Shown: positions 30,676 through 38,809 of the stretch, piece by piece
Position numbering within the stretch: position 1 is the stretch's first letter
How the letters are laid out: each line of letters starts with the position of its first letter
Source of the DNA: Bacillota bacterium
Lineage (GTDB): Bacteria; Bacillota; Limnochordia; DTU080
Assembly (NCBI GenBank): GCA_012840225.1
Contig: DULU01000022.1
Span: 1-40,192, forward strand
DNA: 40,192 bases
Direction: 5' to 3'
Translations under genes and position numbers: made by a program
Notes under the pieces: model-generated
Databases searched by the model: none
Told to the model about the DNA's origin: nothing
Seen by the model: only the letters and a program-made list of their open reading frames with translations

Positions 30676-30705
30676 TTTTCTCGGCATGGGGCTTTGGGGT
30701 TCCTG

Positions 30706-30714
30706 TGGTATAAT
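30706..30714 (+). promoter_or_regulatory. Extended -10 promoter before dxr
   Basis: TGGTATAAT at 30706-30714 is a perfect extended -10 element (TGN-TATAAT). No -35 match stands 16-18 bases upstream, which extended -10 promoters can do without. The predicted start is near 30721, and dxr begins at 30781. Confidence 0.65.
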
Positions 30715-30718
30715 GAGA

Positions 30719-30740
30719 GGTGCCGGCATGGCCCGGCGCC
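30719..30740 (+). other. Hairpin at the 5' end of the dxr transcript
   Basis: GGTGCCGG (30719-30726) pairs with CCGGCGCC (30733-30740), eight pairs with one G-T, closing a loop of CATGGC. It begins about where transcription should start, so the RNA would carry a 5'-terminal stem. It is followed by an A-rich stretch, not a T-run, so it is not a terminator. Confidence 0.5.
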
Positions 30741-30780
30741 AAAAATAAGGCTGATAAACTATAAGATAAGGCGGTTTGTC

Positions 30781-31950
30781 ATGCAGCGGGTGAGTGTACT
30801 TGGTTCCACCGGATCCATCGGCACGGCAGCATTGGACGTGATAGCTCACCACCCCGGGGAACTCACTGTGGCGGCTTTGGCCGCTGCCCGGAATGTGGAG
30901 TTGCTCGCCCGCCAGGCCAACCGGTTTAAACCCGAAGTGCTGGCCCTCCTGGATGGGGATAAGGTGGACGAACTGCGCCGGCAGCTCGATTACCCAACGG
31001 AAATCTGGGTGGGTCCGGAAGGAGTGGCGGCAGCGGCCGCCATGCCGGAGGCCGATACTGTTTTGGTGGCTATAGTGGGAGCGGCCGGATTGCCGGCCAC
31101 CTGTGCCGCGGCGCAAGCCGGCAAGCGCATCTGTCTGGCCAATAAAGAAGCGCTGGTGATTGGCGGCCATCTGGTTACGAGACTGGTCGCTTCCGGCGGA
31201 GCGGAGCTCCTTCCGGTGGACAGCGAACACTCAGCCATTTTTCAATGCTTGTGGCAGGGCGGCAGGGAGGAAGTCTTCGGCATTTACCTCACGGCCTCGG
31301 GCGGACCGTTCCGGCAATTCACCCGGGAGCAGCTGGCCCAAGTGACACCGGAGATGGCGCTGCAGCATCCCACCTGGACCATGGGGCGGAAAATCACCAT
31401 CGATAGCGCCACCCTGATGAACAAAGGGCTGGAAGTGATTGAGGCGCACTGGCTTTTCTCCCTGGACTGGGCTCAGATCAAGGTGCTGGTGCACCCCCAG
31501 TCGATTATTCATTCCATGGTAGAGTTTACCGACGGCAGCATCTTGGCGCAACTCGGCACCCCCGACATGCGCTTGCCGATCCAGGCGGCGCTGCTTTATC
31601 CCCAGCGCCGGCCTGCCCCGGTCAGGCGCCTGGATTTCTCTACCTTGTCGGCTTTGACTTTTGAGTTACCCGATCTCGAGCGGTTCCCCTGCCTCTCGCT
31701 GGCCTATCGGGCGGGAATGACAGGCGGTACGGCGCCGGCGGTGCTCAATGCGGCTAATGAAGTGGCGGTGGAGCTCTTCCTCAAGGGGGAATTGCCGTTC
31801 ATGGCCATACCGAGGGTGGTGGAAGAAAGCCTCGCCGGGCAGCCTTTCGGCCGGGCCGAAACCCTGGAAGAGATTCTCGCCGTGGATGGGGAAGCCAGGA
31901 GGGAGGCCGCCCGCGTCGCCGGGAAGCTGAAGAGCAAAAAAACAATATAA
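30781..31950 (+). CDS. dxr: 1-deoxy-D-xylulose 5-phosphate reductoisomerase
   Basis: Second step of the methylerythritol phosphate pathway to isoprenoids, which feeds uppS. The NADPH site is VLGSTGSIGT (7-16). The active site includes LANKEALVIGG, PVDSEHSAIFQ, ASGGPFR and IDSATLMNKGLEVIEA. At 389 residues the length is normal. I chose ATG 30781; an in-frame ATG at 30694 would start upstream of the promoter. rseP follows after 20 bases. Confidence 0.96.
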   Translation: MQRVSVLGSTGSIGTAALDVIAHHPGELTVAALAAARNVELLARQANRFKPEVLALLDGDKVDELRRQLDYPTEIWVGPEGVAAAAAMPEADTVLVAIVGAAGLPATCAAAQAGKRICLANKEALVIGGHLVTRLVASGGAELLPVDSEHSAIFQCLWQGGREEVFGIYLTASGGPFRQFTREQLAQVTPEMALQHPTWTMGRKITIDSATLMNKGLEVIEAHWLFSLDWAQIKVLVHPQSIIHSMVEFTDGSILAQLGTPDMRLPIQAALLYPQRRPAPVRRLDFSTLSALTFELPDLERFPCLSLAYRAGMTGGTAPAVLNAANEVAVELFLKGELPFMAIPRVVEESLAGQPFGRAETLEEILAVDGEARREAARVAGKLKSKKTI

Positions 31951-31970: not shown

Positions 31971-33041
31971 TTGAATACAGGCGTATTTTGGCAGGAGGCA
32001 TTATCGGCGTCGTCTACCGTGTTGAGCGTGATCGTGGTCTTTGGGGCCCTGATCTTCCTTCACGAGCTCGGCCATTTTGCCGCCGCCAAACTGTCCGGGG
32101 TGAGAGTGTTCGATTTTGCCCTGGGCTATGGGCCGATTTTATGGCAGAAGTTCTGGCGGGGCACCCGCTATTCCATCCGTTATTTCCCGCTGGGCGGTTT
32201 TGTGCGCATGGCCGGCATGGACGACACTCCTGCCGATGTGGAAGTGATCCCGGCACCGGAGGAAAGGTTCGATCACAAGCCGCTGTGGCAGCGCATCCTC
32301 ATCATCTTTTCCGGGCCGGCCATGAATCTCTTCACCGCTTTTTTGCTGATCGCCATATATCTCATGACCATTTCCATCCCGCCGACCGTCTTCAATGTGG
32401 CTCCCGACAGCCCGGCGGCCGAGGGCGGGCTCATGCCCGGGGACAGCTTTCTCAGCATAGAAGGTCAACCGGTAAAGTCGCTGGACGAGGTGTTGTCGTT
32501 CATCAGGACCCATGACGGGCAAGCTCTGGACATGGTGGTGAAAAGGGGCGATGAGGAGATCGGCCTGGTAGTGACGCCGCGCTATAACGCCGAATATGAG
32601 AGCGTCATGATAGGGGCCGAGTTGCATGAACAGCGGGCTCTGGCGCCACCGACAGCCATAAAGGCGGCTATACAGGAGACTTGGCGCTGGTCGGTCCTCA
32701 TCCTGGATTACCTGGGGCAGATGATCACCGGCAAGGTGCAGCCGGAAGTATCCGGTCCGGTGGGCATTGTGGTGATGACCGGAGCGGCAGCCCAGGAAGG
32801 GTTGGCTGCCTTAATCCGCTGGGCGGTGCTCCTGAATATCAACCTGGGCTTGTTCAATCTTTTTCCGATACCGCTGTTGGACGGTTTCTGGATCATCCTG
32901 ATGATCTTCGAGGCGGTGCGCCGTAAACCGCTGGCTCCCGAGCAGCGGGGCATGGCGCAATTCGTCGGCCTGGCGCTGTTGATGCTCCTGATGGTATTCG
33001 CTACCTACCAGGATCTTTTGCGCTTTATCCCGGGACTTTGA
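31971..33041 (+). CDS. rseP: RseP/RasP site-2 zinc metalloprotease
   Basis: Intramembrane protease that cuts anti-sigma factors and remnant signal peptides. The zinc site HELGH is at residues 31-35 in the first helix; the second motif is NLFPIPLLDGFW, where the Asp is the third ligand. A PDZ domain (about 125-215) includes VAPDSPAAEGGLMPGD. At 356 residues it is the Gram-positive length. TTG 31971 follows AAAGGGGA. In many genomes ispG or proS lies next; here polC follows directly. Confidence 0.95.
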   Translation: MNTGVFWQEALSASSTVLSVIVVFGALIFLHELGHFAAAKLSGVRVFDFALGYGPILWQKFWRGTRYSIRYFPLGGFVRMAGMDDTPADVEVIPAPEERFDHKPLWQRILIIFSGPAMNLFTAFLLIAIYLMTISIPPTVFNVAPDSPAAEGGLMPGDSFLSIEGQPVKSLDEVLSFIRTHDGQALDMVVKRGDEEIGLVVTPRYNAEYESVMIGAELHEQRALAPPTAIKAAIQETWRWSVLILDYLGQMITGKVQPEVSGPVGIVVMTGAAAQEGLAALIRWAVLLNINLGLFNLFPIPLLDGFWIILMIFEAVRRKPLAPEQRGMAQFVGLALLMLLMVFATYQDLLRFIPGL

Positions 33042-33116: not shown

Positions 33117-36100
33117 TTGAGCTTGATTTGCACCGTCACCCCTGCGCCGGAAGAAGCCGGATTAGCCCAATTGTGCCGGAAGTTGGGCATTAAAGAGATG
33201 GTTCCGCCGGAAACTGTGATCAATAAAGTGATCGTCTACCCCGGGCGGAATTCCTGGTCTTTGGAGGTGACCGGCGGCGCCCCCATTTATGCCGCCTGGC
33301 GCCTTAGCTTGGAAAAGAGCCTGGCTGCGGCGCTGGGTCTCACCAAAGTGGAGATCGTGCCGGAGGCCGCTCCGGAAGAGAACCCGGAGAAGGCGGCTGC
33401 CGAAGTGCCGGAGATGGGGAACGAGACGGAGACCAGCACCGCTGCGGGCGACGACATCAGCGAAGAAGAATATATGGCGCAGCTGGAGAAGCTGCGCCAG
33501 GAGCGCGAGAATCAACTGGCTGCAGAAGCTTTGGCCGCCAGGGAGACTAAGGTGATCATGGGACAGGCCGTGAAAGAGGAGCCTGTGTCGCTGGAGCAGA
33601 TTGCCGATGAAGAGCGCAGCGTGGTGGTGACCGGGCGCGTCTTTAACCTGAACCGGCGGGAGATGAGATCGGGCCGCACCCTGCTCACCTTTGATATCAC
33701 CGACCACACCGATTCCCTGAGCGTGAAGCTGTTCCTGGAAAAAGAGGATGAAGAGAAGGCCTCGGCCATCAAGGAAGGCACTTGGCTCATGCTGCGCGGA
33801 GCTGTGCAGCATGACAATTTCACTCAGGAATTGTGCCTTATGCCCCGCGACATCATGCTTTCCCCGCCCAGAGGGGTGCGCCTGGACAATGCGGCGCAAA
33901 AGCGGGTGGAGTTGCACCTCCACACCAAGATGAGCGCCCTGGACGGGGTTTCCGACGTGGCGGCCGTCTTCGCCCAGGCCGCAGCCTGGAAGCATGAGGC
34001 TGTGGCCATTACCGATCACGGTGTGGTCCAGGCCTTTCCTTCCGCCTACAAAGCCGCCAAAAAGCATGGCGTGAAATGCATTTTCGGAGTGGAAGGCTAC
34101 CTGGTGGACCAGGCGGACGAAAAAGCGGAGAGTCATCACATCATCATCCTGGCGGCCGACCAGACCGGCCTGCGCCACCTCTATGAGCTGATCTCCCTTT
34201 CCCACCTGCGATATTTTTACCGCAAGCCGCGCCTCCCCCGGGCCGAGCTGACCCGGCTGCGTCAGGGCTTGGTGTTGGGTTCCGCCTGTGAAGCCGGGGA
34301 GATATATAAAGCCGTGCTGGCCGGGCGTTCCGACGCCGAGGTGGAGGCTTTGGCTGCTTTTTACGATTACCTGGAAATCCAGCCGTTGTCCAACAACAGT
34401 TTCCTCCTCGAACAGGGCCGGGTAGCCTCTCTCGATGATCTGCGCCGGCTGAACCGGCGCATCGTGGAGATCGGCCGGCGGTTGGGAAAGCCGGTGGTGG
34501 CCACCTCGGATGCGCACTATCTCCACCCGGAGGATGAGATTTTCCGCCGCATTCTCCTCGCCGGGCAGGGATATGCCGAAGTGGAGAATCCGGCGCCTCT
34601 CTATTACAAAACCACCGAGGAGATGCTGGCGGAATTCAGTTATCTGGGGGAGGAGGAAGCCTGGCGGGTGGTGGTGGAGGACAGCCGGCGGGTGGCCGCC
34701 ATGATCGCCGATGATCTGATGCCCGTACCTAAAGGCTTTTACCCGCCCGAGCTCCCCGATGCCGACAAAATTATCTCCGCCATGGTGCATAAGCGGGCGA
34801 GGGAGATCTACGGCGATCCGCTGCCGCAGCTCGTGGCCGAGCGGATAGATAAGGAGCTGGCGGCCATCATCGGCCACGGGTTCGCCTCACTTTACCTGAT
34901 CGCCCACAAGCTGGTGAAGCAGTCGGTGGACGACGGCTATGCCGTGGGCTCCCGCGGTTCGGTGGGATCGACGATCGTGGCTTTTCTCTGCGGCATTTCG
35001 GAAGTGAATCCGCTCGCCCCTCACTACATTTGCCTCCGCTGCCACAAGTTTGAAGCCATCACCGACGGTTCGGTGGGCGTCGGGCCCGATCTGCCGCGCC
35101 GTGACTGTCCCAATTGCGGTACGCCCATGAAACGGGACGGCTTCGATATTCCTTTTGAAACCTTTCTCGGCTTTGCCGGCGACAAAGTGCCGGATATCGA
35201 CCTGAATTTCTCGGAGGAATACCAACTCCGGGCCCACAAGAACACCGAAGAATTATTCGGGGCGGAAAATGTGTTCAGAGCCGGCACCATAGGCACGCTG
35301 GCCGAGAAGACGGCCTATGGTTATGTCCGCAAATACCTGGATGAGAAGGGGCTCCACCGGCGCTCGGCCGAGATCAATCGCCTGGTGGCCGGCTTGACCG
35401 GTGTGCGCAAGACCACCGGCCAGCACCCCGGAGGTTTGATCATCCTGCCCAAAGGGCGGGAGATTTATGAGTTTACGCCCATACAGTATCCGGCCAACGA
35501 CCGGGAGAGCAACATCATCACCACCCATTTTTCCTTCGACGATATTCATGAACAGCTGCTCAAACTGGATATCCTAGGCCAGTCCGGGCCGACCATGCAA
35601 AAGATGCTGGAAGATCTGACCGGAATCACCGTGGACCAGATACCGCTGGATGATCCGGACACCATGGCCATCTTCCGGGGTCTGGAGAGCCTCGGTATTG
35701 CTCCTGAGGATGCCGGCGGCCCCATCGGCACCTTGGGTATTCCGGAGTATAATACCAGGTACGTCAGGCAAATGCTGGAGGAGACCAGACCGAAAAATTT
35801 TGCCGAATTGATAGGCATCATGGGGTTGTCGCACGGCAAAGGCTTGTGGCTGGACAATGCCCAGGAACTGGTGCGCCAGGGTATCGTGCCGCTGGAAAAA
35901 ACCATCCTCTGCCGCGACGACATCATGCTGTTTCTCATCCGCCAGGGCATGCCGGCGAAAGATGCCTTCCGCATCACGGAGTTGGTGCGCAAAACCGGCT
36001 CCACCATCTCGGCCGCCGATGAAGAGCTGATGCTGCAATATCAGGTGCCGCGCTGGTATATCGAATCCTGCAAAAAGATCACTTACATGTTCCCCAAGGC

Positions 36101-36614
36101 GCATGCCGCCGCCTACGCGCTGAACGCTTACTGGCAGGCATATGCCAAGGTGCATTACCCACTCTTCTTTTATGCCGCCTATTTCAGCATTCACGCCGAG
36201 GAATTCGATGCTTCCTGGGCTACCATGAGCAAACAGGAACTGCATGCCAAGCTCAGAGCCCTCAATGAGAAAGGGAACGCCGCCACCGGTAAAGAGCAGG
36301 GCATAGCCGCCACCCTGGAAGTGGTGATCGAAGCGCTGGCCCGCGGCATCCGCTTCCTCCCGGTGGATCTGTATAAATCCCAGGTGCGCCGCTTTGTCCC
36401 CGAAGACGGGAAACTGCGGCTGCCGCTCATCAGTGTGCAGGGGGTCGGCCTGAAAGCGGCGGAAGCCATTGAGCAGAGCCGAGAGGAGCGTCCTTTCACC
36501 TCGGTGGAGGATATCAAGAAGCGCTGCGGCTTGTCCAAGACGGTTATTGAGGTGCTGGCGGCCTACGGCTGCCTGGAGCATCTGCCGGAAACCAACCAGC
36601 TGACCCTGTTTTAG
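33117..36614 (+). CDS. polC: DNA polymerase III PolC-type alpha subunit, no exonuclease
   Basis: Replicative DNA polymerase of Gram-positives. At 1165 residues it is about 270 shorter than the usual ~1430. The order is: N-terminal domain (1-80), an acidic linker (about 80-150), the OB fold (about 168-250), the PHP domain (262-480), then the polymerase. The DnaQ-like 3'-5' exonuclease that normally splits the PHP domain is absent: CIFGVEGYLVD (321-331) runs straight into SHHIIILA (from 339), and no DxETTG motif occurs. All nine usual PHP metal ligands appear present (H267, H269, D300, H301, E326, H340 or H341, C391, D465, H467). PolC zinc cysteines are C639, C642, C664 and C667; catalytic D693 and D695 lie in PDIDLNFS. 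The C-terminal QLTLF is the sliding-clamp motif. TTG 33117 is nine bases after GGAGG. Confidence 0.95.
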   Translation: MSLICTVTPAPEEAGLAQLCRKLGIKEMVPPETVINKVIVYPGRNSWSLEVTGGAPIYAAWRLSLEKSLAAALGLTKVEIVPEAAPEENPEKAAAEVPEMGNETETSTAAGDDISEEEYMAQLEKLRQERENQLAAEALAARETKVIMGQAVKEEPVSLEQIADEERSVVVTGRVFNLNRREMRSGRTLLTFDITDHTDSLSVKLFLEKEDEEKASAIKEGTWLMLRGAVQHDNFTQELCLMPRDIMLSPPRGVRLDNAAQKRVELHLHTKMSALDGVSDVAAVFAQAAAWKHEAVAITDHGVVQAFPSAYKAAKKHGVKCIFGVEGYLVDQADEKAESHHIIILAADQTGLRHLYELISLSHLRYFYRKPRLPRAELTRLRQGLVLGSACEAGEIYKAVLAGRSDAEVEALAAFYDYLEIQPLSNNSFLLEQGRVASLDDLRRLNRRIVEIGRRLGKPVVATSDAHYLHPEDEIFRRILLAGQGYAEVENPAPLYYKTTEEMLAEFSYLGEEEAWRVVVEDSRRVAAMIADDLMPVPKGFYPPELPDADKIISAMVHKRAREIYGDPLPQLVAERIDKELAAIIGHGFASLYLIAHKLVKQSVDDGYAVGSRGSVGSTIVAFLCGISEVNPLAPHYICLRCHKFEAITDGSVGVGPDLPRRDCPNCGTPMKRDGFDIPFETFLGFAGDKVPDIDLNFSEEYQLRAHKNTEELFGAENVFRAGTIGTLAEKTAYGYVRKYLDEKGLHRRSAEINRLVAGLTGVRKTTGQHPGGLIILPKGREIYEFTPIQYPANDRESNIITTHFSFDDIHEQLLKLDILGQSGPTMQKMLEDLTGITVDQIPLDDPDTMAIFRGLESLGIAPEDAGGPIGTLGIPEYNTRYVRQMLEETRPKNFAELIGIMGLSHGKGLWLDNAQELVRQGIVPLEKTILCRDDIMLFLIRQGMPAKDAFRITELVRKTGSTISAADEELMLQYQVPRWYIESCKKITYMFPKAHAAAYALNAYWQAYAKVHYPLFFYAAYFSIHAEEFDASWATMSKQELHAKLRALNEKGNAATGKEQGIAATLEVVIEALARGIRFLPVDLYKSQVRRFVPEDGKLRLPLISVQGVGLKAAEAIEQSREERPFTSVEDIKKRCGLSKTVIEVLAAYGCLEHLPETNQLTLF

Positions 36615-36685: not shown

Positions 36686-36714
36686 TTGTCAATTGCTCTG
36701 CTAGGTGATATACT
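36686..36714 (+). promoter_or_regulatory. Sigma-A-like promoter of the rimP-nusA operon
   Basis: TTGTCA at 36686-36691 and TATACT at 36709-36714 are separated by 17 bases. Transcription would start near 36721, about 98 bases before rimP. The start region is T-rich. Confidence 0.8.
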
Positions 36715-36750
36715 ACTGGCGTGGTTTTTTGTGTGTTTTTGCCGTTTGTC

Positions 36751-36781
36751 GCGAAAGAGTGGGTAGCCCCCACTCTTTCGC
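36751..36781 (+). promoter_or_regulatory. Leader hairpin before rimP-nusA
   Basis: GCGAAAGAGTGGG (36751-36763) pairs perfectly with CCCACTCTTTCGC (36769-36781), a 13-pair stem closing a five-base loop. It is followed by a weak T-tract (ACTGTTTGG). It lies between the operon promoter and the rimP start. In Bacillus the same operon leader carries a NusA-dependent terminator through which NusA limits its own synthesis. This hairpin may do the same. Confidence 0.7.
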
Positions 36782-36818
36782 ACTGTTTGGCGGAATGTAT
36801 GATGACGGGAGTGGAGCA

Positions 36819-37283
36819 ATGGCGCCATCTGTTGTAGCCCAGGTGACGGCCATGGCGGCGGAACCTTGCCGGGAACTCGGCCTGGAACTGGTGGACGTGG
36901 TTTATGCCAAAGAGCATGGCCGTTATATTCTGCGCATTTTCATAGATAAACCGGGCGGTGTAACTATAGACGACTGCGAAGCGTTCAGCAACAGCATCGG
37001 CCGGCTCCTCGATGAGGCCGATCCGATTCCCAACCAATATTACCTGGAGGTTTCCTCCCCCGGTATCGATCGGCCGCTCAAGAAAGTCGAGGATTTCGAC
37101 CGCTTTAGCGGCAGCAAAGCGGCGATCAAGCTCTACGCCCCACTTGAGGGGCGGCGCTCCTGGCAGGGCATCCTCCGGGGTGTGAGAGAAGGCCAGGTGG
37201 TGCTGCAGGTGGAGGAGAACGAAGTGCTGCTGCCCTTGTCCCAAATTGCCAAAGCCAATCTGCTTGGCGATATTGATATATAA
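36819..37283 (+). CDS. rimP: Ribosome maturation factor RimP
   Basis: Assists assembly of the 30S subunit. The 154 residues open MAPSVVAQVTAMA, then GLELVDVVYAKEHGRYILRI and FIDKPGGVTIDDC; the second half has YYLEVSSPGIDRPLKK. I chose ATG 36819, seven bases after GGGAG (36807-36811). The frame is open upstream across the leader hairpin, but no start there has a ribosome binding site. nusA follows after 47 bases. Confidence 0.94.
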   Translation: MAPSVVAQVTAMAAEPCRELGLELVDVVYAKEHGRYILRIFIDKPGGVTIDDCEAFSNSIGRLLDEADPIPNQYYLEVSSPGIDRPLKKVEDFDRFSGSKAAIKLYAPLEGRRSWQGILRGVREGQVVLQVEENEVLLPLSQIAKANLLGDIDI

Positions 37284-37330
37284 GTTTGGATAAGTTGAGG
37301 ATCACCACAAATTAGGAGGCCGGAGTGAAA

Positions 37331-38809
37331 ATGAATCTGGAGTTGGTAGGAGCTCTGACCGAACTGGAAAAGGAGCGGGGAATCTCCAAAGACATAATAT
37401 ATGAAGCCATTGAAGCGGCTATCGTTTCGGCATATAAGCGCAACTATGGATCCGCCCAGAATATACGCGTGCAACTGACGGACAAGGGCGAGATCAAAGT
37501 TTTTGCCCGCAAGGATGTTGTGGAGGAAGTTATGGATGAAGCCAACGAAATCTCCCTGGAAGATGCCAGGGCCATTGATCCCAATTACCAGTTGGACGAT
37601 GTGGTAGAGTTGGAAGTGACTCCAAGGGATTTCGGCCGCATAGCTGCCCAGACAGCCAAGCAAGTGGTGATCCAGCGTATTCGCGAAGCAGAGAGAGAGA
37701 TGATCTACGAGGAATTCCAGAACCGGGAGGGCGACATCGTCACCGGCATCGTGCAGAGAACCGAGCATCGCCACGTCCTGGTCGATCTGGGCAAGGTGGA
37801 AGCCGTGCTGCCTCCGAGCGAGCAGGTGCCGCGGGAGAATTACACGCACGGCATGCGCATGAAAGTCTATGTCACCGAAGTGCGCAAAACCACCAAGGGG
37901 CCGCAGGTGATCGTCTCCCGCACTCACCCCAACCTCCTGAAGCGGCTTTTCGAACTGGAAGTGCCGGAAATCCAGGACGGCATTGTGGAGATCAAAGCGG
38001 TGGCCAGGGAAGCCGGGAACCGCTCCAAAATCGCCGTGCACAGCGTGGATCCCAATGTCGATCCCGTAGGGGCCTGCGTCGGACCCAGGGGGATGAGGGT
38101 ACAGGCGGTGGTGCAGGAACTAAAGGGAGAAAAAGTGGACATCATCATGTGGCATCCAAACCCTGAACAATTCATAGCCAACTCTCTCAGCCCGTCGCGG
38201 GTGCTGCGGGTGCAGATCCTGGAAGGCGACAAAATGGCCCGCACCGTGGTGCCGGATCACCAGTTATCCCTGGCCATCGGCAAAGAAGGGCAAAATGCCC
38301 GCCTGGCGGCCAGAGTCACCGGCTGGAAGATCGACATCAAAAGCGAAAGCCAGATGCAGGAGTTGCTGGCGCTGGAAGCCAAGCGGATGTTTGCCATTCC
38401 GGAAAGCAGCACTCCGGAAGCTCCGGAGGAAAAAGAGCGGGGTGAGGGTGAGCCGGCTATCCGGCAGGTCAAAGAGAGGGAGATCGATTTCGACCAGCTT
38501 TTACCAGTGCCGGAAAAGCACGGTCTGAATGCCGAGGATCTGTTTAAAATCCCGCATGCCGGTGATGAGAAGGAAGAGGCCGGGAAGGCGAACTCTCCCT
38601 CTGCCGATCAATCCGGTGAGCGCCGTACCCTGCGGGCGGAAGCCGCTTTCTATGAGGCCACTATAGCCGAGGGAGCCGATAAACCCGGGAAAAAAGCGAA
38701 AAAGAGCAAAGGCAAAGATAAAGATGATGAAGGTAAACCCAGGGAAGTGATCCGTGACCTGTCGGAGCTCGCCAAATTGATGGACGTGATCAAGGATGAC
38801 GGGGAGTAG
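37331..38809 (+). CDS. nusA: Transcription factor NusA with C-terminal extension
   Basis: Binds RNA polymerase and RNA, affecting pausing, termination and antitermination. The N-terminal domain opens [19 protein letters not shown] and has [11 protein letters not shown]. The S1 domain (about 130-200) has [20 protein letters not shown]. Two KH domains (about 205-345) include [14 protein letters not shown] and [14 protein letters not shown]. After them comes a tail of about 135 residues, rich in Glu and Lys, with [16 protein letters not shown] and a final helix [16 protein letters not shown]. Bacillus NusA stops near residue 371. ATG 37331 gives the canonical start, with AGGAGG at 37314-37319; GTG 37325 is an alternative. 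Confidence 0.95.

Follow-up and report, generated by a model that had tools for sequence, protein, structure and literature searches.

The polC gene in the window (the whole 40,192-nucleotide stretch of DNA analysed) encodes a chromosomal replicative PolC of the known exonuclease-less (exo-less) architecture, N-OB-PHP-Pol-HhH. Its host is a Bacillota bacterium of a little-studied class, probably Limnochordia. Its PHP domain retains a complete metal site and probably serves as the proofreader of the enzyme, with D465 as the catalytic aspartate, a role that would entail metal binding, nuclease activity and proofreading in the cell. The architecture itself is not new. It was described in 2013, when 6% of PolCs were found to be without the Exo insertion, all from Clostridia and Negativicutes except one Thermotogae copy, the share rising to 16% among the PolCs of genomes with PolC and DnaE1 (Timinskas 2013, PMC3919608). 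The rarity implied by the first-pass annotation does not hold, the form being both previously reported and common. What is added here is its breadth, the one-sided conservation of the PHP site, a decay series of the exonuclease, an extra phylum and a missing DnaE1. The gene, its neighbours and the encoded domains are as follows.

30694..31950, + strand: dxr (DXP reductoisomerase), upstream of polC, beyond the rseP-type gene
31971..33041, + strand: rseP-type M50 protease with PDZ, directly upstream of polC
33117..36614, + strand: polC ORF, 1165 aa; both family models over cut-off (NF001688, 1420 vs 873 bits; TIGR01405, 1310 vs 1043)
33612..33866, + strand: OB domain, residues about 166-250 (PF01336 at 169-236; model strands 166-249)
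33900..34100, + strand: first part of PHP, residues 262-328, with ligands H267, H269, D276, H301 and E326 (Pfam, alignment)
34101..34136, + strand: PHP junction loop, residues 329-340; 13 residues vs 190-217 in exo-bearing PolCs, a DnaE1-like loop length
34137..34616, + strand: second part of PHP, residues 341-500, with ligands H341, C391, D465 and H467 (alignment, AlphaFold2 model)
34509..34517, + strand: D465 and H467, PHP ligands 8 and 9 (alignment; PMC5636811; PMC3666897)
34773..35579, + strand: polymerase core DNA_pol3_alpha (PF07733), with the PDIDLNF aspartates 693 and 695 in invariant columns
35604..36026, + strand: fingers domain (PF17657)
36345..36590, + strand: tandem helix-hairpin-helix (PF14579)
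36597..36611, + strand: C-terminal sliding-clamp motif QLTLF, residues 1161-1165 (sequence)
36705..37283, + strand: rimP, directly downstream of polC
37325..38809, + strand: nusA, 3' of rimP

The reading frame starts with TTG and has GGAGG upstream. Pfam matches the OB, PHP, DNA_pol3_alpha, fingers and HhH domains, and a search of the entire protein gives no RNase_T match anywhere, so the in-frame exonuclease elsewhere in polC that the first-pass annotation had considered is not there by Pfam. The TIGR01405 alignment falls into two segments (2-174 and 376-1211) and skips the exonuclease stretch. The AlphaFold2 model, built on an alignment of 44 exo-less PolCs, has a mean pLDDT of 88.8 and a continuous PHP domain, with block values mostly 90–98 and about 90 at the junction. 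Both the absence of the exonuclease domain and the direct joining of the PHP halves at residues 331-340 (nucleotides 34107-34136), as originally annotated, are thereby borne out. The best PDB match to the model is Geobacillus PolC (TM 0.96 by target, 51% identity), followed by Enterococcus PolC and then DnaE polymerases. The Bacillus, Geobacillus and Enterococcus enzymes (3f2b, 9qpc) share the NTD-OB-PHP-Pol-HhH order and the C-terminal clamp motif with the window PolC, but have their PHP loop occupied by a DnaQ domain (about 210 residues in Bacillus) that the latter lacks; in Geobacillus PolC this domain interrupts the loop that borders the PHP groove (PMC5636811). With an uninterrupted PHP domain and an otherwise PolC-like remainder, the protein belongs to the exo-less subgroup, and resembles the PolCs of Clostridia and Negativicutes that have no Exo insertion in PHP (PMC3919608). 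The clamp motif positions Q1161, L1164 and F1165 are nearly invariant among the aligned exo-less PolCs.

That the junction is an assembly artefact or a gene fusion might be suspected of a 154-contig assembly, but is improbable in the extreme. The short loop recurs at the same length in some 50 PolCs from the window's class, which disposes of an assembly error, and dozens of other lineages have it too.

An even sample of 149 genomes from the window's phylum was surveyed by profile search, and 113 of them gave a strong PolC match. Of these matches 41 span the exonuclease region, one (G182) partly enters it and five are cut by contig ends; the remaining 66 begin at model position 369–381, and so are without the exonuclease. 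All intact PolCs of the window's own class are exo-less. A collection of 137 PolCs, drawn from this survey and other loci, contains 98 without the exonuclease and 39 with an insertion of 190–217 residues. The exo-less form, a minority in the 2013 data (PMC3919608), is thus the majority in the present broad sample, which also extends to a further phylum. In Goldbacteria/FCPU426, which is not part of Bacillota, PolC occurs in about 28 of 40 sampled genomes, usually beside a DnaE, and all PolCs fetched (L010, L012, L014 and the 20 others, L168–L187) are exo-less. This phylum lies outside the PolC phyla of 2013 (Firmicutes, Fusobacteria, Tenericutes and Thermotogae). In three of its draft genomes (G205, G206 and G232, with PolCs L010, L012 and L168) the exo-less PolC is the sole C-family polymerase found, and no RNase_T protein was found. 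Replication by PolC only was considered for these and rejected: a member of the same family (G208) has a DnaE that shares 56% identity with other DnaE proteins of the phylum, and the missing DnaE may therefore reflect draft gaps. Five other genomes of the phylum carry a DnaQ of 180–200 aa about 9–12 kb from dnaE (G215 C10, G225 C23, G241 C193, G221 C30 and G233 C24), a possible candidate for an epsilon subunit of DnaE. Within the window's class, family f6 (G008, G025, G037 and G046) shows no proper PolC, its scores staying at the DnaE level.

Good conservation of the PHP site is a general trait of PolC (PMC3919608), and a 2026 survey from the same group, which reports three proofreaders in most Clostridia, gives HHDHEH[C/H]DH as the motif of an active PHP site (PMC12926913). 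All nine ligands claimed for the window PolC are present (9/9). The motif HHDHEHCDH occurs in 98/98 exo-less and in 33/39 exo-bearing PolCs (Fisher p 4e-4, kinship not corrected); a kinship-aware, tree-based pair test of exonuclease loss against PHP state has four usable pairs only, and hence no power. The alignment of 44 exo-less PolCs has 35 invariant columns in the PHP domain, and every one of the nine ligands occupies such a column (hypergeometric p 8e-9). The six exceptions among the 39 exo-bearing PolCs read HHDSEQGDH (twice), HHDHEHCNH (twice), NHELQQNDY and KHSENDGNY, and across the 137 PolCs a broken PHP site is found only with another exonuclease in the same chain. DEDDh is intact in 37 of the 39 exo-bearing proteins. 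The PolCs of Helcococcus (L018) and of L019, L020 and L022, which bear the exonuclease and have degraded PHP ligands, form a mirror image of the window case.

D465 stands at position 8 of the site and is equivalent to D226 of Mycobacterium tuberculosis (Mtb) DnaE1, whose PHP domain is a trinuclear zinc exonuclease; D226 is needed for this activity and has been proposed as the water-activating residue (Banos-Mateos et al., PMC5636811). In Geobacillus PolC, by contrast, the eighth of the nine listed ligands is an asparagine, N743, and the PHP domain binds three metals but exonuclease activity was not detected (Barros et al., PMC3666897). The first-pass annotation had placed an Asn here in Bacillus PolC, and for PolC of the Bacillus type rightly so, since it is found in the Geobacillus enzyme and in two exo-bearing PolCs. 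The Mtb and Thermus DnaE1 proteins (PMC5636811) and the window PolC have in common a nine-ligand PHP domain with Asp at position 8 and no DnaQ interruption. They differ in that DnaE1 is DnaE-type, with the OB domain on the C-terminal side and a tau-binding CTD, whereas the window protein is PolC-type by the family models; it may therefore function like the DnaE1 group without being a member of it. The PHP exonuclease is experimentally established in the DnaE1 proteins, and predicted from sequence in the window PolC.

By analogy with the mechanism proposed for Mtb DnaE1, the nine ligands would assemble a trinuclear metal centre, and a mismatched 3' end would enter along the groove that the short loop (residues 329-340) borders. 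D465 would then activate a water molecule, and the terminal nucleotide would be removed before synthesis resumes. PHP proofreading has been shown for a few DnaE polymerases; the PolC that was tested, that of Geobacillus, is altered at the site, and activity was not detected in it. Where an exo-less PolC has an invariant site and its genome is free of DnaQ-family proteins, PHP proofreading in PolC becomes directly testable. The question bears on how one proofreading domain comes to replace another in replicases. For antibiotics directed at PolC it matters too, as many bacteria carry the exo-less form.

Whether another exonuclease could take over was examined with an RNase_T screen, which is sensitive, as it detects a protein in 26 of 27 exo-bearing genomes, the sole miss being G182, in which the exonuclease is dead. 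Among 40 exo-less genomes, 27 have an RNase_T match at 1e-12, many of these being of DinG type and about 880 aa or longer, and 12 have none even at E<=0.001, including three single-contig assemblies (G075, G179 and G152). In genus g120 (G182 and G154) RNase_T is found nowhere in the genomes, and the PHP site is intact. Free-standing DnaQ proteins (<320 aa) occur in 19 of 40 exo-less and 12 of 27 exo-bearing genomes (p 1.0), and compensation by free DnaQ was accordingly rejected. As a separate observation, in the PolC of G122 (L118) the place of the exonuclease is taken by a low-complexity linker of 83 residues, the exonuclease itself being absent, and the genome is without an RNase_T match.

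A separate DnaQ, for which the first-pass annotation had proposed a search, does exist in the window's genome. Two free-standing DnaQ-type proteins are present, one of which (on C17, 298 aa) has a BRCT-like tail matching DNA ligase models. The other, on C150, has 220 aa and an intact DEDDh set, reaches 152 bits with a profile built from PolC exonuclease domains and exceeds the cut-off of TIGR00573, the epsilon family. It could on these grounds be an epsilon-like subunit that serves the window PolC in trans, leaving the PHP domain a mainly structural part. This seems unlikely, however, as the C150 protein matches DinG and other DEDDh families about as well, stays below the equivalog cut-offs, has no recognisable QxxLF clamp motif in its sequence and is flanked by genes unrelated to replication; nothing was found that links it to the replisome. 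Free DnaQ is moreover not enriched in exo-less genomes, and a purely structural PHP domain does not predict invariant ligands. A similarly low probability attaches to a window PolC with little or no proofreading, where fidelity would depend on mismatch repair and on base selection, with the PHP domain acting as a pyrophosphatase or serving stability or metal-dependent folding. PHP integrity does affect the stability of E. coli Pol III (PMC3666897), and the site is mostly intact in exo-bearing PolCs too; given the full motif in most of these, an intact site alone is no proof that the exonuclease role was handed over. Against this stand the nine ligands, including the proposed catalytic Asp, which are without exception in a group that has no other exonuclease in its chain, and the exonuclease activity of DnaE relatives with the full ligand set (PMC5636811, PMC3666897). 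Proofreading by the PHP domain is the likeliest mechanism, supported by this conservation and by the absence of alternatives in many relatives. The original suggestion that PHP itself proofreads, and that D465 is telling, is supported by the ligand invariance and by the many exo-less genomes without a DnaQ-type protein.

The first-pass annotation left it undecided whether the short loop is ancestral or the result of loss. Loss is seen directly in another family, f33, where G118 (L093) and G077 (L094) have intact exonuclease domains, while the 197-residue domain of G182 (L145) has VVxDxETTG changed to VVLALATTG and no DEDDh residue left, and G154 (L143), of the same genus, keeps only a 38-residue linker between the same flanks. 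PHP is intact in all four. Together with a second dead exonuclease, in L023, these intact, dead and deleted states indicate that secondary loss in PolC is real and that PHP is retained. A single clade of exo-bearing PolCs is rejected (AU p 4e-5). Recurrent domain swapping, as a source of the patchy pattern, is disfavoured by the correlation of exonuclease and core identities across PolCs (Mantel r 0.55, 0/2000 permutations), which makes one old acquisition with many losses, under old vertical descent, the likelier course.

For the window's own lineage the alternative trees give opposite answers. On the free IQ-TREE tree the window's class does not descend from the common ancestor of the exo-bearing PolCs, and the exo-less root has a slight advantage (-34.8 vs -36.8, or 2 log units). 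When the Goldbacteria-type PolCs are set at the base, the likelihood rises by 29 units; the window PolC then falls within the exo-bearing radiation, and the advantage passes to an exo-bearing root (-31.5 vs -36.8, or 5 log units). By the AU test (p 0.86) neither tree is preferred. The answer on gain or loss depends on the position of the root. It is conceivable, though somewhat doubtful, that the short loop came first in PolC and that the window's lineage branched off before the DnaQ insertion. The outgroup DnaE proteins, with no insertion and a similar loop length, agree with this, as does the free tree, but the outgroup branch is very long and the tree of higher likelihood points the other way.

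The partner polymerase also departs from the published pattern, in which exo-less PolC is paired with DnaE1 (PMC3919608), whereas the window's genome (G000) and three relatives (G001–G003) have only a short, clamp-less DnaE. The one DnaE found in the window's genome (C109, 1102 aa) comes closest to the model for error-prone DnaE2, although below the cut-offs of the DnaE2 and equivalog models, and is without a clamp motif or C-terminal domain. Ligand 8 of its PHP site is Asn, as in G001 and G002; in G003 it is Asp. A clamp-binding DnaE1 was not found in these four genomes, which are 91–97% complete, so that its absence is unlikely to be due to chance; in G000, PolC is consequently the one C-family polymerase found to carry a clamp motif. 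Each of the eight other class members searched has a second DnaE of greater length, and seven of these longer proteins carry a clamp-like motif. The four genomes, from the window's family and its sister family, may tentatively be assigned a replicase set in which an exo-less PolC, with PHP as the only replicative proofreader, works beside a short DnaE that is DnaE2-like and clamp-less, DnaE1 being absent, a combination not listed in the published table of PolC + DnaE1 and PolC + DnaE3 sets. Short DnaE2-like proteins with no clamp motif and mostly Asn at ligand 8 (L196–L205) are found in most class members searched. The short DnaE gene of the window's genome adjoins an SRAP/HMCES-like ORF (L153).
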